Shown here piece by piece: positions 4,794-40,505 of a stretch of DNA of 64,000 nucleotides. The translations under genes and the position numbers were made by a program. Under the pieces are notes generated by a model. That model made no database searches. It was not told where the DNA came from and was given only the letters and a program-made list of their open reading frames with translations. Position 1 is the first letter of the stretch; each line of letters begins with the position of its first letter. This stretch comes from Euzebya tangerina (GTDB lineage: Bacteria > Actinomycetota > Nitriliruptoria > Euzebyales > Euzebyaceae): the NCBI RefSeq assembly GCF_003074135.1, contig NZ_PPDK01000001.1:1488001-1552000 (forward strand), in the 5' to 3' direction.

Positions 4794-5482
4794 GAGAACG
4801 TGCAGGTCAGAGGCGGTTTCGCGGCTCGCATCCTCCTCGTGAGCGTAGCCAGGCCGATCGCCGATCCAAGGTCCGTCCCAGTCAGATCCCACTGCGGGGC
4901 TGAGGGGAGCGCAGGCCTTGATGCCGCGGCCGACACGGACCGCAACCCTCGCATCGCTCGTAGCCTCCGTCGAGGCCTCTGATATCCGGGGATACCTGAC
5001 GTCGCGGGATCCGCTCGATAGTCCCCGTTACGGCACGGCCAGGCCGATCATCCAGGGTCGGCGTCAGGAGCGTAACGACTCGGTGTTGCGTCCATGGGTG
5101 AGGCAGGTCTCCCGGGCGTCGTCGCGGATGAGGGTATGCCGTCCCGTAGGTCGGCCTGCATCAAGGGGTCCCCACGTTCGGGAGCAGGACACGCCCGAGT
5201 CCCTCGGACGTAGTCGCCACTGCTTTGTGAGTGCATCCGTCGTAGTCGGAAGGCCGACCGACCGTGTGCCTGGCTCGTGGTTCCGCTCTTCCAGTGGTGG
5301 AGGTGGCCCGCCCTGTCGGCCTTTCGCGCGCAACCCACGACCGCCAAGGGGCCATGGCGATGCCTGGCAGCCTTACCCGGCCACTGCATACCTCGCAGTA
5401 GTTCCACCGGCGAAGTTCCTGGATGCCATGTCACAGGTCGCCCGTACCCTTCGGAGTCAGAGTCCGATTCCGGGAGGAACGC
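4794..5482. other. 689-bp gene-free region upstream of CBASS operon
   Basis: Frames here run against each other with no family signature and no good ribosome binding site, so I call no gene. The word CCAGGCCGATC occurs twice (around 4850 and 5040). TACCCT at 5445-5450 is a possible -10 for the CBASS operon. GGGAGGA at 5472-5478 is the ribosome binding site of the first CBASS gene. The stretch may be a remnant of the junction formed when the defence block was acquired. Confidence 0.45.
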
Positions 5483-6472
5483 ATGGCGCAGTTGATCACC
5501 CAGTTCGAGAAGGCTTGCTCGAACGTTGAACCTGACGCCGAAGACATCGCCAACGCTGCGGAGGCTCACGCGGCCATCCGTGATGTTCTCGACAACCACC
5601 CAGACCTCGTCGTCAAGGGCATCGACACGGTCCTGATCGGCAGCTACAAGCGGCACGTATCGATCCGCCGGGTGAAGGACGTCGACGTGCTCTCACGCAC
5701 GGACGGGCTTGACATGACTGCGCCTGAGGCACTCGACCTGTTCGAGCAGATCCTGTGCCATGAGGACGCCTTCGGTGAGGACCGAGTGGAACGCCAAGAC
5801 CGGTCCATCAAGATCGGGTTCCCCGATTACAACCTCGATGTCGACGCCGTGCCTGCCCGTCCCGCCGGCGAGTACTGGGAGATCCCAGACCGGGGAGCCA
5901 CCTGGACGAAGACCAATCCCGAGAAGCTCACCACACTGAGCTCGACGATAAACGGCACGTTCGACGGCCTGTACGTCCCGATCGTCAAGCTCATCCGGCA
6001 GAGCCGCCGCGCCAACTTGGACAGGCGACCCGGCGGTTTCTACTTCGAGATCCTCACATACCACGCCTTCAATAATGGGCTGGATGGCGACAACCTCCCC
6101 ACGCTCTTCGTCGCCGCCATGCGGTCCGTCGCCGACCAACTTGCCGAAGTCGTCAACGGCGGCGACGTGGAGGACCCCACGATGCCTGGCGAGTACATCA
6201 CGGTCAGGGTGACCGACGCGCAACTGCTGGCTGCCGCCCGGAAGTTCGCGGCGCTCGCCGACAAGGCCGAGGGCGCTCTGGGCAACGACGATCTATGCGG
6301 GTCCGCGTTGGCCTTTCGGGAGGTCCTGGGCAAGAACTCCGATGACGAGTGGGTCTTCCCGATGCCTGCGAGCTGCAACGACGACGGTACGAGGAAGGCC
6401 GTCGCTACCGTGTCGTCCACTGCCACCGCCGGCGACCAGGACGTCCCGGCAGGGAACCGGCGCTTTGCGTGA
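5483..6472 (+). CDS. CBASS CD-NTase (cyclic oligonucleotide synthase)
   Basis: 329 aa cGAS/DncV-like nucleotidyltransferase. Signature G53-S54 (IGSYKRHVSI), metal-binding D66 and D68 (VKDVDVL) and third Asp D121 (LDVDAVPA), followed by the helical C-terminal half. In CBASS it makes a cyclic di- or trinucleotide on phage infection, which activates the effector encoded three genes downstream. ATG 5483 follows GGGAGGA at 6-bp spacing. The stop overlaps the GTG of cap2 by 4 bp. In type II CBASS, Cap2 conjugates the C-terminus of this enzyme to cellular targets; here that end is ...DVPAGNRRFA. The product cannot be predicted from sequence alone. Confidence 0.95.
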   Translation: MAQLITQFEKACSNVEPDAEDIANAAEAHAAIRDVLDNHPDLVVKGIDTVLIGSYKRHVSIRRVKDVDVLSRTDGLDMTAPEALDLFEQILCHEDAFGEDRVERQDRSIKIGFPDYNLDVDAVPARPAGEYWEIPDRGATWTKTNPEKLTTLSSTINGTFDGLYVPIVKLIRQSRRANLDRRPGGFYFEILTYHAFNNGLDGDNLPTLFVAAMRSVADQLAEVVNGGDVEDPTMPGEYITVRVTDAQLLAAARKFAALADKAEGALGNDDLCGSALAFREVLGKNSDDEWVFPMPASCNDDGTRKAVATVSSTATAGDQDVPAGNRRFA

Positions 6473-7908
6473 GCCCATGGGAGGCGGCGGCCGCGGCAGC
6501 ACGCGAGGCGTTCCTAGAGGACTTGGCCAACGTCGGGTTCAACGTCAGGTCATCTGAGCGAGCCGAAGGAGATGTCGAGCACCACGGACGTCTGGTCCCC
6601 GTCGACATCCACATCCCGCCGGGGTTTCCCTACCAGCCCCCGAAGGTTCGGCCCATCGACGGGACAGGCGGTCTCTCCTGGCATGCGGAACTCGACGGCA
6701 CGCTATGCCTCTGGGCCGCCGAGGAATGCGGGTCACTACCCTGGCAGACAGCGCGACAGGTCGTTGAACGCGTCCAGCATTGGCTCGACCACGACGCCCG
6801 CGGATGGATCGATGACACCCCCGACCTCGACCTGGAGCGGTATTGGCCCAGCACCGAGGGCCTCGTCCTGCACCCCGACCTCGACCCCCTGATCGGCAAA
6901 GTTGCACGCCTCACCCGCATCGGCAGCGTCTGGACCGTGAAGCCCGGGGCACCCCCGGAGGGTGGGAAGCAGCTGGGCTGCCTCATCCTGGACGTCGGCG
7001 AACTGGCGGCACCGCTGCGCGCCGAAGAACAGGTCCTCGACGAAGTCGCAGCGATCCGTCCGGCGCTTGAGAAGCGCGTCGGGTCCCGCGACATGCCACT
7101 GGTCATGATCCGCTACTGGCGCGACGGCAGCGCGGGGGTGTTGACGCTGCGGGCCACCAGCACCAAGCCCCTCACCCTGGCATCGATCGCTACCGCTCAC
7201 CATGGCGACGCCACGCTACAGCTACGCGCAGGCGTTGATCGTGGCCTCCTCAGCGTCAAGGCCGTTGCAGTCATCGGCTTGGGTGCCATCGGGTCGCAGG
7301 TCGCCGGTCTACTCGCCAGGGCGGGCGTGGGGACACTGACCCTGGTGGACCACGACATCGTGCGCCCGGGCAACCTAATCCGTCACACAGCCACACCCGC
7401 AGACGTAGGGCACCCCAAGCCTGATGTCGTTCAACGCCAAATCAGGACTGGCCCATCGACGACGAACGTCAACATCCAACGGGAGGCGGTGGTCACACTG
7501 GAAGCTGCTACGGAACTGCTCAACAAGCACGACCTGGTGATCGACGCCACGGCCAACCAGGCGGCGACCCGTCTACTTCTTGACGGTGCACGGTTGCTCG
7601 ACCGGCCGGTCGTGAGTGTGTGCCTGGTCCGAGAGGGGCAGGTCGCCAGGGTGGATCGTGCTCCGCTGCGACCTGGAGAGGACCACCGGCCGGCTGCGCC
7701 TGAGACGGCCGTTGCCACCCTGATGTTCGAAGGTGGATGCGGCAACCCCATTTCCCCCGCGCCGATGTGGGCAGCCACTGCGGCGGCAGCGCGAGCCGTC
7801 GGCGCTTGCGTAGACGCGCTCACGGGTCGCAACGAGTACCCGCCTACCGTGCTGGATGTCCTCGTCGCCGGTGACGGCTCGTGCGGCCCCGTGGGGGAAA
7901 GTGGATGA
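6469..7908 (+). CDS. cap2: CBASS Cap2, E2-E1 ubiquitin-transfer-like fusion
   Basis: 479 aa. The N-terminal E2-like domain has the catalytic Cys C80 in GTLCLWAAEE, preceded by the UBC-type IPPGFPYQPPKV. The C-terminal ThiF/E1 domain has the adenylate-binding glycine loop VIGLGAIGSQVAGLLARAG (about 268-286) and the acidic VDHDIVRPGNLIRH. Candidate E1 catalytic cysteines are C424 (EGGCGNPISP) and, less likely, C385. Cap2 primes the CD-NTase by conjugating its C-terminus. GTG 6469 overlaps the upstream stop (GTGA); a longer frame extends upstream, but only inside the CD-NTase gene. Confidence 0.94.
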   Translation: MSPWEAAAAAAREAFLEDLANVGFNVRSSERAEGDVEHHGRLVPVDIHIPPGFPYQPPKVRPIDGTGGLSWHAELDGTLCLWAAEECGSLPWQTARQVVERVQHWLDHDARGWIDDTPDLDLERYWPSTEGLVLHPDLDPLIGKVARLTRIGSVWTVKPGAPPEGGKQLGCLILDVGELAAPLRAEEQVLDEVAAIRPALEKRVGSRDMPLVMIRYWRDGSAGVLTLRATSTKPLTLASIATAHHGDATLQLRAGVDRGLLSVKAVAVIGLGAIGSQVAGLLARAGVGTLTLVDHDIVRPGNLIRHTATPADVGHPKPDVVQRQIRTGPSTTNVNIQREAVVTLEAATELLNKHDLVIDATANQAATRLLLDGARLLDRPVVSVCLVREGQVARVDRAPLRPGEDHRPAAPETAVATLMFEGGCGNPISPAPMWAATAAAARAVGACVDALTGRNEYPPTVLDVLVAGDGSCGPVGESG

Positions 7909-8378
7909 GGGTGCGACGACCACGAATCGTTATTCGTACGACCCGTAGAGCGCTAGGAGAAGGCTTCAGAGCAGGACAGCGACGACTTCCACGCGAAACC
8001 GGCGGCATCATCCTCGGATGGCGCGATACCGGTCTCATCCACGTGGAGCAACTGCTCGAGGTACCCGACCCACACGCCCACTACGTCAACTACGAACGCA
8101 GTCATGATGCCGCCCAGCGCGCCTTGAAGGCGGCCTTGGCGCAACTGCCCCCTGACACCCTTCAGGGCTACGTAGGCGAGTGGCATACCCACCCCGTAGA
8201 GCACCCGCCCAGCAAGCAGGACCGCAAGGAGCTCAGGGCAATCGCACGCACAACGGGCAAGCCCGTCGTCCTGATGGTCCTGGCGGCCGGCGGTGCCGGA
8301 CGATGGCACCCAACAGCCCTAACGGCTCACGGCCGGCCCCTCAGAGCGATCCCAACACGAATCGAGGAGCTTCCATGA
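7905..8378 (+). CDS. cap3: CBASS Cap3, JAMM/JAB isopeptidase
   Basis: 157 aa. A JAMM metalloprotease with E31 (RETGGIILGW) and the zinc motif H94-x-H96-P...S103-x-x-D106 (GEWHTHPVEHPPSKQD). In type II CBASS it reverses Cap2-made conjugates of the CD-NTase. ATG 7905 overlaps the cap2 stop by 4 bp (ATGA). All metal ligands are present, so an active enzyme is expected. Confidence 0.94.
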   Translation: MRVRRPRIVIRTTRRALGEGFRAGQRRLPRETGGIILGWRDTGLIHVEQLLEVPDPHAHYVNYERSHDAAQRALKAALAQLPPDTLQGYVGEWHTHPVEHPPSKQDRKELRAIARTTGKPVVLMVLAAGGAGRWHPTALTAHGRPLRAIPTRIEELP

Positions 8379-9829
8379 CCCTTCCCTCACGCGCCGCTGC
8401 CATCCGAGGCGACGACTACCAGCACGCCATCGGCTGGTACTGGGCATGCCAGATGCTCCAAGACCCCGACATCGGAAGCGTGACAATCGAGGACCCCGAA
8501 GGCGGAGCATTCGACGACATCCTCATCCGGCGACGAACAGGACTTGACACGTACATCCAAGCCAAGAGTTCCAACTACGGAAACACCATCGTCGACGCGG
8601 CCTGGCTACTGACGCCAAAATCCGACAAGAGCCGCAGCCCGCTCCAGCGGTTCCACGACACCTACCTCCGCCTGACAGCCGATCAGCGGCTGGTCTCCTT
8701 GGAGCTGTGGACCAACCGGGGCTTCGACCACGACAACCCACTCCTTGGCCAGCTCCTCGATCGGAAGCATGACAAAGTGGACACGGCTCGAATGCTGGGC
8801 GTTTCATCGCGAACAAAGATCGGGAAGGAGCGTGACGCTTGGGCCCAGCATCTGGGTATCACCAAAGATGAACTGGCCGCGTTTCTCAATCAGTTCTCCT
8901 GGAAGCAGACCGGCTCAGAGCTCGACTGGCACAAGCATGCCAAGCCACTCATGCAGCTCGCCGGCCTCCGCGATGACGACGAAGCATTGACCATCGGCGT
9001 CAACGTTGTCCGGGACTGGGTCAGCAACGGCATCGGCACGCGAACCGTCGACGACCTCCGGGCCGAGGTCGCCAACCGCAACCTACTCGCGCTCACGGGG
9101 ACGCTCCTCTTGGCCGTTGACGGTATCGACCACGACCCGACACCGACCCCGCCCAACCTGCGGCTCGACTTCGTCGATCTGCACGAGGGCGACGATTCGT
9201 TCAGCCGCAAGCTTCTCAAGGACCCCGCCGACTGGGACCGCGTGGTGCGTCCGGCGTTCACAGATGCAGCCCGGACCCTGGCCTCGTATCGCGTGCGCCG
9301 CGTCCACATCGCTGGGGCGCTGCGCCTCCCCATGTGGTTCGCGGCAGGACGATCATTCCCCGAGGTAAAGAAGTGGATCGTTTCGATGGACCAAGTGGAC
9401 GAGCAGTGGAGCACGGACACCATCCCCGAAGACATCGCTCCTCGTGAGCTCGCCCGCAAGGACATCACTGGTGACACCGATGTGGCGCTGGCAGTCGCCC
9501 TGACGGGTGATCCCACAACCCAGGTCGAGGACTACCTCCGGTCGAGTGGGCTCCCGGTCGGACGCATGATCGTGCTTGGTCCGCACGGCAAGCCGTCGGC
9601 GACAGCTGTGCCGTCGCCCGGATGGGCCATGGGCTGGTCTCGTGGGGCAAGGGACATCGTGCGCGGCGAGGCGCAGGCAGCGGATAATGCCCACATCCAC
9701 CTCTTCATGCTCTGCCCGGCTGGGATCGCAATGATGCTCGGGCATCAGTGGAACGTCATGCCCGCGACGACGATCTATGAATTTTCGGAAGGCAAGTACA
9801 GCCCGACCTTCACCTTCCCCGGCGCCTAG
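8375..9829 (+). CDS. cap4: CBASS effector Cap4: DUF4297 endonuclease plus SAVED domain
   Basis: 484 aa. The N-terminal PD-(D/E)xK nuclease of the DUF4297 type begins RGDDYQHAIGWYWACQML and carries E39, D47/D48 (GAFDDILI) and Q62-x-K64 (YIQAKSS). The C-terminal SAVED domain (about 300-484) includes HIHLFMLCPAGIAMMLGHQW and TIYEFSEGKYSP, the conserved SAVED core. Cap4 binds a cyclic trinucleotide through SAVED and then degrades double-stranded DNA, killing the infected cell. ATG 8375 overlaps the cap3 stop by 4 bp and follows GAGGAG. Confidence 0.94.
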   Translation: MTLPSRAAAIRGDDYQHAIGWYWACQMLQDPDIGSVTIEDPEGGAFDDILIRRRTGLDTYIQAKSSNYGNTIVDAAWLLTPKSDKSRSPLQRFHDTYLRLTADQRLVSLELWTNRGFDHDNPLLGQLLDRKHDKVDTARMLGVSSRTKIGKERDAWAQHLGITKDELAAFLNQFSWKQTGSELDWHKHAKPLMQLAGLRDDDEALTIGVNVVRDWVSNGIGTRTVDDLRAEVANRNLLALTGTLLLAVDGIDHDPTPTPPNLRLDFVDLHEGDDSFSRKLLKDPADWDRVVRPAFTDAARTLASYRVRRVHIAGALRLPMWFAAGRSFPEVKKWIVSMDQVDEQWSTDTIPEDIAPRELARKDITGDTDVALAVALTGDPTTQVEDYLRSSGLPVGRMIVLGPHGKPSATAVPSPGWAMGWSRGARDIVRGEAQAADNAHIHLFMLCPAGIAMMLGHQWNVMPATTIYEFSEGKYSPTFTFPGA

Positions 9830-11143: not shown

Positions 11144-12043
11144 TCACGTCGAGCCGAGCACGTCCAACTGCTCTCGTAGACGGCGGATGTGCGCCGGACC
11201 GACCTCGCAGCAGCCCCCGACGATCTGGGCCCCTTGGTCCACCCAGCCAATGGCGTGACCGGCGTAGGCGGCAGCGTCCAGGTCATTGCGAGCGTCCGGG
11301 AGCCCGTCGGTCACGACCCACCCGTCGGGGATGCCGACGAACCCGTTGGCGAACCCGCCGGCCGGTCGGCCGGAGTCAACCAGCGCAGCCATGGCCGCCG
11401 TGATCCGCTCCGGCTGGACGCAGTTCACCAGCACCGCCGCGACCGGCAGATCCGCCACAGCAGCCAGCGCGGCGGCGATCCCCGAGCCGTCCCGCAACGC
11501 ACCGGCCTCTCCCTCCTCCGCCAGCGTCCACGACACCCACACCTCCCTGCCGGTCGCGGCGGCCGCGGTCAAGGCGGCACGGGCCTCCTCCGCCGTCGAC
11601 ATCGTCTCGCAGAGGAACAGGTCGACGTGGGGGAGCAGCAGCTCCGCCTGCTCGGCGTACAGCGGCACCAGCTCCTCGAATGCTCCGACGGCGTCCGGGT
11701 TGAACGTGCCGCGCAAGGGCCCCAGCGACCCGGCGATCCGGACCGGTCGGTGGGTCTCCTCCCGAGCCCGCACGGCCAGCTCTCCCGCGGTGCGGTTCAG
11801 CTGCTCGAACAGATGGCCGACACCGACCTTCTCCAGCCGGTCCCGGCCAGCGGCGTAGGAGTTGGTCGTGATGACGTCCGCCCCGGCCTCGATGTAGTCG
11901 CGGTGGACCGCCAGGACCTCCTCCGGGGCGTCCAGCAGAGCGGCGGCGGACCACAGCGTCTCAGATCCCGCGACCCCACGCGCGACCAGCTCCTGCCCCA
12001 TGCCGCCGTCCAGCAGCGTCACCCCAGCGGTGGTGTTCGACAT
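11144..12043 (-). CDS. Homocysteine S-methyltransferase family protein
   Basis: 299 aa TIM-barrel enzyme. N-terminal LLDGGMGQEL, central IAGSLGPLRGTFNPD, and the zinc ligands: the Cys in LVNCVQPE plus the Cys pair in IVGGCCEVGPAHI. The family transfers a methyl group from S-methylmethionine or a similar donor to homocysteine. ATG 12043 places the barrel motif at residue 10. Convergent with the NERD gene. Its central and C-terminal segments recur as a broken fragment near 19 kb. Confidence 0.93.
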   Translation of the reverse strand: MSNTTAGVTLLDGGMGQELVARGVAGSETLWSAAALLDAPEEVLAVHRDYIEAGADVITTNSYAAGRDRLEKVGVGHLFEQLNRTAGELAVRAREETHRPVRIAGSLGPLRGTFNPDAVGAFEELVPLYAEQAELLLPHVDLFLCETMSTAEEARAALTAAAATGREVWVSWTLAEEGEAGALRDGSGIAAALAAVADLPVAAVLVNCVQPERITAAMAALVDSGRPAGGFANGFVGIPDGWVVTDGLPDARNDLDAAAYAGHAIGWVDQGAQIVGGCCEVGPAHIRRLREQLDVLGST

Positions 12044-12159
12044 GCCACGATCCTGCCCGGGATGCTGGCGTCGCGCCCCCGATCCAGCCCGTGCGGACGG
12101 GCGAGCGTGGTGCCCACCCAGGCTCAAGGTCGCGGGTCCCGACGTCGACAAAGGATTGG

Positions 12160-13239
12160 ATGGTCCAAGTGGCACGAGCGGTGTGGGAGGGATTCGGGCG
12201 GCTACCCCTGCCGGTCCGGCTGATCGCCTGGCTGCTCGGCTTCTGGATCCTCCCCGTCGCGTGGCTCGCCGCGCGCGGCAGCCGAGTCGCGCGGTACGGG
12301 GCTCTCGCCTTCCTCGTCCTCGTGACGGCGCCAGTGGCCCTCGCGATCGCGACCGACGAGACCGAGCCCGCGCGCGAGGTCGTGGTGGAGGCTCCGACCC
12401 CCACCGCTCCCACGGAGATCCAGCCCGCGCAGACGCCCTCCGCCGCCGACTCGCCTGTCCCGGACACCCCCGAGACCGACGAGGCGGATCCCGCTCCGCT
12501 TGAACCGACTGAGGAACCGACGGAGGAGGAGCGCGGCCCGACCCTGCTGCACATCCAGCGACCCATAGACGGCGACAGCTTCGTCGCCTCCGACGGCGTG
12601 GAGTACCGGGTCTCGATGATCAACACGCCCGAGACGGCGGAGTGCGGATCGGCCGAGTCCGACCAGGCCGGCTACGCCCTCCTCGAGCAGGGCTTCACCG
12701 TCCAGCCGACCGGCGGGACGACCTTCGGCCGCATGGTGGTCGTCGTCACGCTCGCGGACGGGCGCGGGTACGGCGTGACGATGGCCCAGCAGGGCATGGT
12801 CGACGACCGCTACCTGGAGGAGTACCGACACGAAGCGCCGGAGGAGGCCGACCAGTTGGAGGCGGCGTTCGCCACCGCCAGGCAGTCCGGCGCCGGCCTC
12901 TGGACCACCTGCTGGTCGGACACCAGCGACCAGATCGCGGTCGCCACCGCAACGCCGGAGCCAGCCGACCGGACGCCCACCGTGGCACCGCAGCCGCTGC
13001 TCCCACCACAGCCGGCCCCCGCGCCGCTCGAGCCGCTCACGCCGCCTGAGCCGCAAGACCAAGTGCCCGCCGCTGAGGAGGGATGTCACCCGGCCTACGA
13101 GGAATGCCTCCCGATCGGCCCCGACCTCGACTGCGCCGACATCGGCCATCGGGTCCACCTGACGGGCCAGGACGACCCGTACCGACTGGACGGCAACAGC
13201 ACCACCCGGCAGAACGGGATCGGCTGCGAGTCGTACTGA
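12160..13239 (+). CDS. Membrane-anchored thermonuclease (SNase) with C-terminal calcium-binding-like tail
   Basis: 359 aa. Two hydrophobic segments (about 15-32 and 43-60) anchor it, followed by a Pro/Thr/Glu-rich linker. The SNase domain runs from about 125 to 260: IDGDSFVASDG, YRVSMINTPETAECG (equivalents of Arg35 and Glu43) and FGRMVVVV (Arg87 equivalent). After a proline-rich spacer comes an excalibur-like tail (CHPAYEECLP, DLDCADIG, DPYRLDG, NGIGCES). Probably an extracytoplasmic calcium-dependent nuclease. The last 40 bp or so of the gene recur at 15.96 kb. Confidence 0.9.
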   Translation: MVQVARAVWEGFGRLPLPVRLIAWLLGFWILPVAWLAARGSRVARYGALAFLVLVTAPVALAIATDETEPAREVVVEAPTPTAPTEIQPAQTPSAADSPVPDTPETDEADPAPLEPTEEPTEEERGPTLLHIQRPIDGDSFVASDGVEYRVSMINTPETAECGSAESDQAGYALLEQGFTVQPTGGTTFGRMVVVVTLADGRGYGVTMAQQGMVDDRYLEEYRHEAPEEADQLEAAFATARQSGAGLWTTCWSDTSDQIAVATATPEPADRTPTVAPQPLLPPQPAPAPLEPLTPPEPQDQVPAAEEGCHPAYEECLPIGPDLDCADIGHRVHLTGQDDPYRLDGNSTTRQNGIGCESY

Positions 13240-13277
13240 CCCGACCGCTCTGTCGCAGGAGGTCCCGAGGCCGGGGA

Positions 13278-13543
13278 TCACGAGTCCACCCGGCCCCGGA
13301 GCAGACAGAACTCGTTGCCCTCCGTGTCTGCCAGGACCACCCAGGTCTGCTCGCCCTGACCGATGTCCACGCGGGTCGCGCCGAGGTCGAGCAGCCGCTC
13401 AAGCTCCTCGGCCTGGTAGTCCAACGCTGCCATCCGGCTCTCGACGGCTCCGGACCGGCCCCACTCAGTGCGGCGCACCAGAAGCTGACGAGCTGGGCCA
13501 CATCGAAGGCAGCGACCACACTGGTCAAGAGCGGGGAAGCCAG
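13278..13543 (-). pseudogene. Broken copy of the VOC gene at 16.0-16.4 kb
   Basis: The C-terminal part (LLDLGATRVDIGQGEQTWVV...) is nearly identical to the intact VOC protein at 16036-16407. The central part, roughly 110 bp, is missing at about 13428, after which the N-terminal part resumes in another frame (DVAQLVSFWCAAL against DVDRLVSFWCAVL). The start codon is lost (CCCAT in the intact copy is GCCAG here). It follows the SNase gene with the same spacing as in the second copy, showing that both were duplicated together. Confidence 0.85.
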
Positions 13544-13602
13544 CGACGAATCGTTCCGCCCGTCAGAGTCCCGGCTGCCTGGGTCATACGACTTCCAAGC
13601 TG

Positions 13603-13991
13603 GTGTGCTCAGCTCCTCGGACACCCACCGAGGACCCCCAAGCGGCCACCCTGTTGCGTCTGCTCTCGGCGGCAGGGAAGTCGGTGCAGGCGGTCCCCTG
13701 GACCCTGCGTCCAACCGGTTCCACGACCTGGTCTCACAACGGTGGGCCGCGATGGTCGCCGAGGATCCCTCACTACTCGATGCTGCGGTCACCGCGCTCG
13801 ATGGGATGTCAGGGAGCTACACCGACGTCTGGCGCCATCTGCTGGCTGCCGGTCCCGACGCCGTCATCGGCGTGCTCACCTCTCCCTCCGACGCGGTCTC
13901 GGCGCTGAAGTCGGATGCGCCGTTCGGGAGGATGGGACTGATCGGTGAGGACGAGCGTCGCGAGCTCCTCAGGCGGGCCTATGGGGCGTGA
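13603..13991 (+). pseudogene. Frameshifted small gene of unknown function
   Basis: Two frames together make one plausible protein. The first (from GTG/ATG about 13603) reads EDPQAATLLRLLSAAGKSVQ; the second continues LDPASNRFHDLVSQRW... and runs to 13991 ending LLRRAYGA. The switch needs a one-base indel near 13690-13700. The helical pattern could suit an antitoxin or regulator, but I recognise no family. If intact instead, the second frame could start at ATG 13752 and encode 79 aa. Confidence 0.5.
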
Positions 13992-14219
13992 GCAGGTCTG
14001 GCACGCGGCGAGGGCGTCCTGTCGGGTTCTCGGTGTTCGTCGTGTGCTGTGATCGGCAGTCAAGCGCTCTGAGTCAGCCAGGCATCTGCCGCACCGTGGC
14101 CACCGCTCCGCCACGAGGCGCGCTCGGCACTCCCAGCCATCTGCCCCAAGCTCGATGTCGTCCTCCTCGAGGCGGATCTTCGACGGAATGGTCCGCCGTC
14201 GATGCTGGTTCCAGCGGAT

Positions 14220-14834
14220 ATGAACATCGGGATCATCGGATCAGGCAACATCGGCGGCACGCTCGCGACGCTCCTCACTGCGACCGGCCACGACGTCATG
14301 TTGGCCAACAGTCGCGGGCCGGACAGCTTGCGAGAGACTGTCGAGGGCAACGACCGGCTACAGGCTGGCACGGCAAGCGAAGCGGCGCAGTTCGGTGAGG
14401 TGGTCATGGAGGCCATCCCGCTGAAGGCCATTCCCGGCCTACCCACTGATGATCTGGAGGGGAAGATCCTGGTCAGCGCCGCCAACTACTACCCCGACCG
14501 CGACGGTCAGATCGACCTCGGTGGGCTGAGCCAGACCGGTTGGGTCGCTCAGCAGGTGCCTGGCGCCCGCGTGGTCAAGGCCTTCAACACGATCTGGTTC
14601 CGGCACCTCGCGGAGCGAGGGGACACGACCAAGCCCGAGGACGAGCGGCGGGCGATCCTGCTGGCGGGGGACGACGAGGAGGCAAAGGCAACGGTCGCTG
14701 ACCTGATCCGCGAGCTCGGCTTCGCGCCAGTGGACACCGGGACGTTGGAGGAGAGCACGCGGCAAGAACCCGGACAGCCGCTGTACAACGCCGACGTGAC
14801 GGGTGCGGAGGCTCGCCGGCAGTTGAGCAGCTGA
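14220..14834 (+). CDS. NADPH-dependent F420 reductase-like oxidoreductase
   Basis: 204 aa single Rossmann domain of the NAD-binding 'F420 oxidoreductase' family. MNIGIIGSGNIGGTLATLL at the N-terminus, then the NADP-selecting NSRGPDS after strand 2, ILVSAANYYP and VVKAFNTIW. Members reduce or oxidise small substrates with NADPH or link NADP to F420. ATG 14220 puts the glycine motif directly at the N-terminus; an upstream start at 14202 would add 6 aa. It is 15 bp from the next gene, so probably co-transcribed. Confidence 0.88.
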   Translation: MNIGIIGSGNIGGTLATLLTATGHDVMLANSRGPDSLRETVEGNDRLQAGTASEAAQFGEVVMEAIPLKAIPGLPTDDLEGKILVSAANYYPDRDGQIDLGGLSQTGWVAQQVPGARVVKAFNTIWFRHLAERGDTTKPEDERRAILLAGDDEEAKATVADLIRELGFAPVDTGTLEESTRQEPGQPLYNADVTGAEARRQLSS

Positions 14835-14849
14835 GCGTCTGGGTCAACC

Positions 14850-15395
14850 GTGCAGCAGCTCTCAACAACCGTGGTGGCCGTGGTCGGGTCGCAGGCTCAG
14901 CCTGCCGTCCAGGACGTCGCGGGCGCCAACCTCCGGGTGATCGCGGCGACGGATGATCCCGTGACGACCTGGGCCGAGGTCCGCCGCAGCCGATCGCCGT
15001 TCACCGTCATCACTGACGACCCGCTGAGCGAGGTGGCACAGGCCTGGTCCGAGCTGTTCGCCAGCCAGCGCTCGACGGGCCGTCTGGAGGTCGCAGTCCG
15101 GGAGGCACGGCAGCGCATCCGCGCCGGGGTGCTGGACCTGCCCGACTACTACCTGACCGCCGGCGAGGCGCCGTTCCACCTCACCGTGCTGGCTCCGCAG
15201 TCAGCGGTCCGCGTCGTGCCGCTCGATGCGGACGTGGCACGAACGGTCTCGGGGCTGTCGTCCGGGCGCTGGTGGCCTCCGCCGGGTGAGCTGTTGGCTG
15301 ACCTCGACCGGCGACTGCCCGATCGGTTCGCCGCGGCCAACGCGCGGGACGAGCCATCGCTGGTGGCCCTCGGGGCCGCGACCCATCAGACGTGA
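14850..15395 (+). CDS. Hypothetical protein
   Basis: 181 aa from GTG 14850, 15 bp after the F420-reductase-like gene. No family recognised. Globular composition with alternating hydrophobic strands at the N-terminus (TTVVAVVGSQ), an aromatic segment LPDYYLTAGEAPFHLTVLA and VRVVPLDADVARTVSGL. Codon use matches its neighbours, so it is likely a real gene. The context suggests a role linked to the oxidoreductase, but nothing in it shows which. Confidence 0.65.
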   Translation: MQQLSTTVVAVVGSQAQPAVQDVAGANLRVIAATDDPVTTWAEVRRSRSPFTVITDDPLSEVAQAWSELFASQRSTGRLEVAVREARQRIRAGVLDLPDYYLTAGEAPFHLTVLAPQSAVRVVPLDADVARTVSGLSSGRWWPPPGELLADLDRRLPDRFAAANARDEPSLVALGAATHQT

Positions 15396-15593
15396 CTGCT
15401 GTTGGCGGGGCATTCGGTGTGGTCTCCGGATGTCGCCCGGCCCGTGAGGAGCCCCGACCTAACCCGGTGCCGCCGCGTGGGTAGCGGTGCTCACCGCTTG
15501 CCGGTCCGTAGGTGGGCGGCTACGGCCAGTGAGTCGACGGAGCATCCATCGCGGTCCAGGCGCAGGAGGTGCTGGTGACGAGTGCCTGCAGGG

Positions 15594-15958
15594 TGGAGCC
15601 GATCGGTAGAACCGCACGATGGCCCCTCGGCCCATGTACACCTCGGCCGGGCCGTCGTCGGACAGGACCGGGTAGCCGTCAGCGAACTCGAGCGTCAGCA
15701 CCGCCTGCACCTCGCTGTCGGTGAACGGTTCGAGGTAGGCGGTCGCGAAGCGTGGCGAGAAGGTGGCGGCGGCCGCGGCAGCTCGCTCCGGGAAGCTAGG
15801 GAGCCCGAACAGCTGGACCAGGACCGGGAGGTGGCTGGTGACCGGCTGGCCCGTCACGTCGACGGCGTCCGTGGTGGCCTCCAGCACGTCGCCGAGGATC
15901 GTCAGCAGATGGGAGAGCGCATCACCGGCGAGGTTCTGAACCTCGTCGATCTGCAAGC
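15594..15958 (-). pseudogene. Fragment of an AAA/STAND-type ATPase gene
   Basis: Minus-strand frame with Walker-B-like LQIDEVQNLAGDALSHLL followed by LLTILGDVLEA, LPVLVQLFGLPSFPERA and YLEPFTDSEVQAVLTLEF. This is the order seen in actinobacterial ATP-binding proteins of the 'DEVQ' archaeal-ATPase type. Walker A and the C-terminus are missing. The 5' end is fused directly to a copy of the SNase gene's last codons. A second fragment of the same family, with near-matching words, lies at 40.38-40.50 kb. Confidence 0.7.
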
Positions 15959-16003
15959 ACCCATCGGGAGAATGGAATCGGCTGCGAGTCGTGCTGACCC
16001 GAC
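15959..16003 (+). pseudogene. Duplicated 3' end of the SNase gene
   Basis: Encodes THRENGIGCESC-stop, matching TTRQNGIGCESY-stop at the end of the SNase gene (13239), and is followed by the same downstream sequence into a VOC gene. It has no start and no upstream part, so it is only the edge of the duplicated segment. Confidence 0.8.
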
Positions 16004-16035
16004 CCGTCAGCCGCAGGAGGTCCCGAGGCCGGGGA

Positions 16036-16407
16036 TCACGAGTCCACCCGGGCCCGGAGCAGACAGAACTCGTTGCCCTCCGGGTCTGCCAGGACCACCC
16101 AGGTCTGCTCGCCCTGCCCGATGTCCACGCGGGTCGCGCCGAGGTCGAGCAGCCGCTCAAGCTCCGCGGTCTGGTCACGGTCGCGGGGCCGGATGTCGAG
16201 GTGCAGGCGGTTCTTCGTCGTCTTCGCCTCCGGCACGGGCTGCACCAGGATGGTTACCGAGCCTGGCGCCTGCGGGTCGGCGATCTCGACGGCGCCGTCC
16301 GGCTCCACAGCTTCGGACCGGCTCCACCCGAGCACCGCGCACCAGAAGCTCACCAAGCGGTCCACATCGTGGGCATCGATGACGATGGTCGAGAGCGCGG
16401 AACCCAT
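16036..16407 (-). CDS. VOC (glyoxalase-fold) family protein
   Basis: 123 aa, single VOC protein of the glyoxalase-like 'Glyoxalase_6' type. STIVIDAHDVDRLVSFWCAVLG at the N-terminus, central NRLHLDIRPRDRDQ (conserved His-x-Asp) and C-terminal VLADPEGNEFCLL with the metal-ligand-type Glu. Substrate unknown. This is the intact partner of the broken copy at 13.28-13.54 kb. Confidence 0.88.
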   Translation of the reverse strand: MGSALSTIVIDAHDVDRLVSFWCAVLGWSRSEAVEPDGAVEIADPQAPGSVTILVQPVPEAKTTKNRLHLDIRPRDRDQTAELERLLDLGATRVDIGQGEQTWVVLADPEGNEFCLLRARVDS

Positions 16408-16759
16408 CGGCGCACCCTACCGGCAGGTCGGTGGGGCCGCGATGGTGCCCGCCGCCTGCGGCCACTCGGCGGTCGCGATCTCCTCCTCGGGCTCGCGGGG
16501 GTGGGGAAGCGCACGGGGACCCTCGTCGCGTCCGGCTTCCCCCTCGGACGCGATCACGTTGGCGGCCACCATGAGGAGGAGGCTGTGACCGCCTCGCTCC
16601 TCGCCGACCTGGCGGATGTCTGATCGCCGCAGCCCAGGCCTGCGCGGGGCGCGATTCGCGCCATCACTTTCCATCGGACGGTGCCTGTGGACAACGGTCC
16701 AAGGGCGAATGGCAGACCTGTTACCGTCGTGGTCACAACTGACCAGGGGGGTGGAACTC
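16408..16759. other. Gene-free stretch upstream of second CWB2 gene
   Basis: Contains the nucleotidyltransferase fragment described at 16437-16578. The remaining 180 bp should hold the promoter of the CWB2 gene. GGGGGTGG at 16746-16753 is a plausible ribosome binding site for ATG 16760. Confidence 0.4.
16437..16578 (-). pseudogene. Broken 3' copy of the nucleotidyltransferase gene at 19.1 kb
   Basis: The minus-strand translation MVAANVIASEGEAGRDEGPR... aligns residue by residue with MVASLADVITSKEAAGRDKD..., the C-terminal part of the intact gene at 19128-19631. The stop is lost and everything upstream of this segment is absent. Confidence 0.75.
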
Positions 16760-18819: not shown

Positions 18820-19127
18820 ACGTGGATCACGTACCGCTTGATGCCAGCCGGGGCTTGCACGTCCACGAACTCACGCAGGCGGCCACCGTTCTCGCCAGGC
18901 CCCACTGCCCATAAGCCTGACTTGACCAGCAGCGCTCGTTAGGAGGTCTGCTCGTACGGCTGCCTGAATTTGTTGGCGGGAGTGCGCGCCGGCCCGACTT
19001 CGCAGCACCACCGACAGCGTGGGGTTGAACGTGTCACGCAGTGGCCGCAGCGAGCCGGCGACCTGGACCGGTCGGCCAGCCCTCCTCTCGGCGCCTGGCG
19101 CAGGCCGATGGTGCCGCCCGGCTGCGG
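18820..19127. other. 308-bp stretch holding a gene remnant
   Basis: Apart from the homocysteine-methyltransferase fragment described at 18981-19095, no coding signal is seen here. Confidence 0.45.
18981..19095 (-). pseudogene. Broken copy of homocysteine S-methyltransferase gene
   Basis: On the minus strand VQVAGSLRPLRDTFNPT matches VRIAGSLGPLRGTFNPD of the intact enzyme at 11144-12043. Just beside it, 18981-19011 matches the DNA for the intact gene's C-terminal GGCCEVGPAH region. Two distant parts of the gene are thus joined by an internal deletion. No start or stop in frame. Confidence 0.75.
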
Positions 19128-19631
19128 TCACCCGCTGCTGGCGATCTCCTCTTGGAGCGCGCGGAGGTAGGGGAGGGCACGGTGATCCTTGTCGCGTCCT
19201 GCCGCCTCCTTGGACGTGATGACGTCGGCGAGGGACGCCACCATGACCTGCGTGCCGCCTCCGAGATCAAGCTCGACCGCGTCGTCGATCAGCGTGGCGT
19301 AGCCATCGGGGAATCCGGAGGGGGTGATCGTCAGGTCGAGGTCGCCGGCGTCGGTCGTCAGGTTGAGCATGTGGGGCTGGGAGACCAAGAACCCGGTGTT
19401 GATCGGGAACGCGACGCCGTCCGGGTCGCCAGTCCGAATTCGGGCCCCGAGTTCCCGCAGGGCGGCAGCCAGTCGGTCCATGTTGGCCTCGTCGCGGGCG
19501 GGCGCGATGTCGACGTCTTCGGTCGGCAGCGCTGAGCCGTGGGCGACCGCAGCCATGCCTCCGACCAGAACGAACCGCACCCCGTGGTCCTGGAGCGTCC
19601 GGATCAGTCGCTCTGTGTCCAACTCCCTCAC
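19128..19631 (-). CDS. Nucleotidyltransferase (AbiEii/MNT-like), toxin or antitoxin component
   Basis: 167 aa. Polymerase-beta-fold nucleotidyltransferase: FVLVGGMAAVAHGSALPTED with the D-x-D pair (TEDVDIAPA) and a later acidic strand DLDLTITPSGF. The C-terminus has VMVASLADVITSKEAAGRDKD, typical of AbiEii-like proteins. Its ATG overlaps the stop of the RHH gene by 4 bp, the usual toxin-antitoxin arrangement. The catalytic set appears intact. Confidence 0.82.
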   Translation of the reverse strand: MRELDTERLIRTLQDHGVRFVLVGGMAAVAHGSALPTEDVDIAPARDEANMDRLAAALRELGARIRTGDPDGVAFPINTGFLVSQPHMLNLTTDAGDLDLTITPSGFPDGYATLIDDAVELDLGGGTQVMVASLADVITSKEAAGRDKDHRALPYLRALQEEIASSG

Positions 19632-19906
19632 GAGGCCGTCGCCTCGCCCAGGGGTCGGACCTTCCTGACGGTGCGGTCATTCCAGGCGATCCGCTCGGCA
19701 GGCGTGAGACGCAGCATGCGACGGATTTGAGAGCGGTCCACGTCCTCCGCGGGCAACGCCGCAGCGATCAGTGCCCGCAGGTACGCCGCACGTGTCATGC
19801 CCGCGCTGGCGGCAAGCCGGTCGACATCGCGCAGCAGCTCCGGTGGGAGGCGGACGGTCACCCGTTGACCGACTCGCGGACGGCCTCGGCCTGGAGTGGT
19901 GGTCAC
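19628..19906 (-). CDS. Ribbon-helix-helix antitoxin-like protein
   Basis: 92 aa from GTG 19906. An N-terminal basic arm, then the RHH pattern QRVTVRLPPELLRDVDRLAA and SAGMTRAAYLRALI. The C-terminal third is an extension (LTPAERIAWNDRTVRKVRPL) that could contact the partner. First gene of the pair with the nucleotidyltransferase; DNA binding to its own promoter is expected for this family. Confidence 0.82.
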   Translation of the reverse strand: MTTTPGRGRPRVGQRVTVRLPPELLRDVDRLAASAGMTRAAYLRALIAAALPAEDVDRSQIRRMLRLTPAERIAWNDRTVRKVRPLGEATAS

Positions 19907-40379: not shown

Positions 40380-40505
40380 AGCGACCTCCAGGGTCCCCTC
40401 CGTCAGCACGCGGTAGCCGTCGGCGAACTCGAGCGTCAGAGACGTCCGCACCTCGGCGTCGGTGAAGGGCTCGAGATAGGTCCTCGCCCGATGGCCGCAG
40501 ACGGG
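40380..40505 (-). pseudogene. Second fragment of AAA/STAND-type ATPase gene
   Basis: The minus-strand frame ARTYLEPFTDAEVRTSLTLE continuing FADGYRVLTEGTLEVARSL matches the end of the fragment at 15594-15958 (YLEPFTDSEVQAVLTLEF, ADGYPVLS). It continues slightly further toward the C-terminus. No start, no Walker motifs; it abuts the SRPBCC-like gene. Confidence 0.65.

Follow-up and report, generated by a model that had tools for sequence, protein, structure and literature searches.

The window analyzed here, a 64,000-nucleotide stretch of the Euzebya tangerina genome (contig NZ_PPDK01000001.1, positions 1,488,001 to 1,552,000), contains a small block of DNA in two copies. The block comprises the end of a gene for an SNase-like protein and a convergent VOC gene, which is decayed in the first copy and intact in the second. 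Our preferred reading, to which we assign a probability of roughly 0.7, is a segmental duplication with early decay of the VOC gene in copy 1 and, at a later time, ectopic gene conversion between the copies.

Organization of the Duplicated Block

Pairwise alignment within the window yielded two matches that are collinear and share one orientation; together they define one block in two copies, copy 1 at 13198–13558 and copy 2 at 15956–16422 (no strand is assigned to either). The first match is ungapped (13198–13417 against 15956–16175, 204 of 220 positions identical, E = 6e-92). The second covers 13429–13548 and 16294–16412 (91/121 identical, E = 5e-17), and extends to 13558 and 16422 under laxer scoring. 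The alignment score was 325 bits, compared to 33.7 bits for the best of 100 shuffled pairs. The block runs from the last 13 codons and the stop codon of the SNase-like gene, through intergenic DNA, into the convergent VOC gene and approximately 15 bp beyond its start. Homology therefore continues, collinear and in one orientation, across the boundaries between genes and intergenic DNA, as in a segmental duplication.

The preliminary description had located the two segments at about 13200–13543 and 15959–16407, which is nearly exact. Similarity is not confined to the C-terminus of the VOC protein, but spans the SNase end, the stop codon, the intergenic DNA, and the 5′ end and start region of the VOC gene. 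The alignment thus supports the original reading of a duplication with one decayed copy, which had overlooked the uneven identity of the copies and the junction with an ATPase gene remnant, both described below.

The SNase-like gene is intact (12091–13239, + strand; 382 aa counted from the earliest possible start) and its last 42 bp form the left end of copy 1. Its product has a weak likeness to thermonucleases (NCBIfam, E = 0.0023). Copy 2 carries 42 bp of this gene and nothing of the gene upstream of those. This tail remnant of 13 residues and a stop codon (15956–15997, + strand) is identical to 13198–13239 at 35 of 42 positions, in the same frame and with a shared stop, and the contrast between the 382-aa ORF and the remnant bears out the earlier observation that the whole SNase gene is kept in copy 1 and only its tail in copy 2. 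A second SNase-like gene of the same genome (L032, G000 C1:1431487–1432035) lies about 56 kb ahead of the window; with two in-frame stops in its match, it appears to be a pseudogene as well.

The block is gene-sized and both of its edges are sharp, features that would also suit a mobile cassette or insertion element carrying VOC genes. However, long edge-specific repeats are absent, no recombinase was found in or beside the block (among the larger ORFs scanned, from 11 to 18.6 kb), and the genome holds just these two copies, with one further, more distant VOC gene that matches weakly. Nor was such a block present in the plasmid collection, where the matches listed were VOC or F420-dependent oxidoreductase genes alone. 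We consider a mobile origin very improbable.

The VOC Gene Is Intact in Copy 2 and a Pseudogene in Copy 1

The VOC gene of copy 2 (16036–16407, − strand) is uninterrupted, as first described, and encodes 123 aa. It matches the Glyoxalase_6 profile over its whole length (PF18029, E = 8.9e-30; profile positions 2–106 of 106), with 103.9 bits against a curated cut-off of 23.6. Its best relatives, VOC proteins of related genomes, are 50–60% identical (one row of their alignment, L013, was on the wrong strand and was left out), and like the Glyoxalase_6 VOC proteins of actinobacteria the product matches the full profile and has no unusual feature.

The counterpart in copy 1 (13281–13543, − strand) is a pseudogene, with a reading frame that is disrupted relative to its intact homologue. 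At about 13418–13428, 118 bp of copy 2 are represented by just 11 bp, a net deletion of 107 bp; in addition, there are one 2-bp and one 1-bp indel in the 5′ part and the start codon has changed from ATG to CTG. These lesions account for the central deletion, frame change and lost start that had been attributed to this copy. A match to PF18029 persists in the C-terminal part (E = 9.7e-10), and the 5′ part matches copy 2 only, among all the loci fetched. Counted by codon position (1/2/3), the two VOC copies differ at 2/2/1 sites in the 3′ part and at 6/10/10 sites in the 5′ part, a near-even spread that fits neutral decay, as expected of a gene without function. Caution is needed before the ORFs of 66 aa and 302 aa that lie over copy 1 are annotated as genes.

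Divergence Between the Copies Is Uneven

Read from the SNase side of the block toward the start of the VOC gene, the copies differ at 11 of 61 (18%), 5 of 159 (3%) and 27 of 118 (23%) positions. The outer parts are alike in divergence (p = 0.56), while the middle has diverged six- to sevenfold less and differs from both ends (p = 5e-4; p = 5e-6 when its VOC portion is compared with the 5′ part of the VOC gene). The copies had been called near-identical, which holds for about 13254–13407 only, and not for the SNase tail (7 of 42 positions differ) or the 5′ part of the VOC gene.

In a segment scan, the best low-divergence segment had 3 differences over 152 bp; none of 300 permutations reached this contrast. 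The local divergence is significantly below that of the flanks, silent sites included: at the silent-rich third positions, 1 of 46 differ in the VOC 3′ part against 10 of 37 in the 5′ part (p = 0.002). We designate 13254–13407 of copy 1 (no strand; 3 differences in about 152 bp) as a putative gene-conversion tract, which is short and rests on small numbers, and the right end of which is approximate, as the 107-bp deletion lies at that edge. The uneven divergence is best explained if the duplication is old and a stretch of about 150 bp at the 3′ end of the VOC gene was converted later.

As the C-terminus of VOC proteins is well conserved in the family, protein constraint needed testing as a cause of the conserved tract. 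In 101 relatives compared with copy 2, third positions differ about equally in the two VOC parts, 44% and 51%. The jump at third positions is thus absent from the relatives, and protein constraint does not account for the tract. The same reasoning bears on an account without gene conversion, in which a simple duplication decayed evenly and the VOC 3′ end stayed similar through chance or protein constraint. The C-terminus is indeed where the family is most conserved, but the VOC gene of copy 1 is dead, the gap at third positions is about twelvefold, the permutations did not reach the contrast, and the relatives have no such contrast at their third positions; we regard this account as unlikely.

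Gene conversion as the cause would fit what is known as intrachromosomal gene conversion between paralogues (concerted evolution), in which a short tract is far more alike than its flanks in otherwise diverged copies. Here, in contrast, one of the partners is a pseudogene.

Junctions and Surroundings of the Block

Copy 2 begins at the broken end of another gene. A remnant of a gene for an AAA-type ATPase (15633–15959, − strand), with 64% amino acid identity to residues 181–289 of a much longer open ORF in a congener (G002), is cut at an IDEVQ (Walker B-like) motif where copy 2 begins. The remnant abuts the SNase tail of copy 2 without a gap, so that two broken genes meet at 15956–15959. A second scrap of the same AAA-ATPase family is present at 40398–40487, the corresponding ORF being long and open in two congeners, and a DNA search of the genome revealed no intact copy of this ATPase gene.

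Near the other end of copy 2 lies a 3′-terminal scrap of a nucleotidyltransferase gene (16440–16574, − strand), 76% identical over 141 bp to 19106–19246; the whole gene is at 19128–19631. This gene (AbiEii/DUF2204-like) is preceded by a small ribbon-helix-helix-like gene (19628–19906), and the two possibly form a toxin-antitoxin pair. It is adjoined by a scrap of a homocysteine S-methyltransferase gene with an internal deletion (18983–19136), of which the whole gene is found at 11144–12175. With copy 2 joined to the ATPase remnant and located beside the nucleotidyltransferase scrap, the region between about 13 and 19.6 kb has been rearranged and is rich in pseudogenes. Directly after copy 1, 13603–13990 is probably a frame-changed 3′ remnant of a regulator-like gene, for which there was no family match. 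Further upstream is a Type II CBASS-like defence operon (5423–9829), with an oligonucleotide cyclase (E = 6e-115), an E1-E2 protein (E = 1e-125), a JAB peptidase and a SAVED-PDDEXK (Cap4-like) effector (E = 3e-109).

The scraps differ by about 15–27% from the whole genes, like the outer parts of the VOC block, so that a larger and older series of duplications and losses competes seriously as an origin of the block. The SNase and VOC genes may have been duplicated whole in a larger tandem duplication, with separate losses of the SNase gene in copy 2 and the VOC gene in copy 1 and no gene-sized displacement; the deletion of the copy 2 SNase gene would then have made the ATPase junction. The nearby partial repeats (16440–16574 against 19106–19246, and 18983–19136 against parts of 11188–11805) diverge to a similar degree, as if they stemmed from one old duplication series. 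On the other hand, no similarity was found between the flanks of the two copies outside the block and the scraps are in no simple repeated order, and we consider this history possible, if doubtful. A translated comparison of the flanks yielded no more than scattered matches of low identity, as is typical for GC-rich DNA, and we did not use it.

Relatives and the Direction of Copying

No single-copy outgroup was found by DNA or protein searches in the genus and 40 relatives, and at every fetched locus outside the window SNase and VOC genes were not neighbours. Three of the 41 genomes searched, all congeners, have a clear homologue of the SNase-like protein (40–44% identity); in none of these is a VOC gene adjacent, and the three loci have no neighbours in common with the window. 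The direction of copying is therefore assigned by parsimony: only copy 1 has the complete SNase gene, which makes it the likely parental copy.

Proposed History of the Block

In the history that we favor, segmental duplication with subsequent gene conversion, about 360–470 bp (the SNase 3′ end and the complete VOC gene with about 15 bp ahead of its start codon) would have been duplicated approximately 2.76 kb downstream. The displaced copy would have landed where the broken ATPase gene now abuts, with edges that may have been joined illegitimately. The original VOC gene, in copy 1, would have turned into a pseudogene early and the displaced copy 2 would have been retained, after which ectopic conversion may have restored near-identity along about 150 bp at the 3′ end of the VOC gene. 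Copies that are 3–25% different are atypical of an assembly artefact, though an assembly error is conceivable. We also considered that the whole stretch is a hot spot at which a hitherto unrecognized local mechanism repeatedly copies and converts gene-sized scraps over a few kb, the VOC block being one product, and find this very improbable.

Direct-orientation copies of which one is intact and the other has indels, a deletion and a lost start are also seen in partial (segmental) bacterial gene duplication with pseudogenization. The present case differs in that the dead copy occupies the likely parental site and the surviving one is displaced. Duplication, decay and gene conversion are well-known processes of bacterial genome change. 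Nothing in the block is new in kind, and we regard it as ordinary genome turnover. It provides a clear small example of a gene that lives on in a displaced copy while the probable original has died, the two still being linked, on our reading, by gene conversion.
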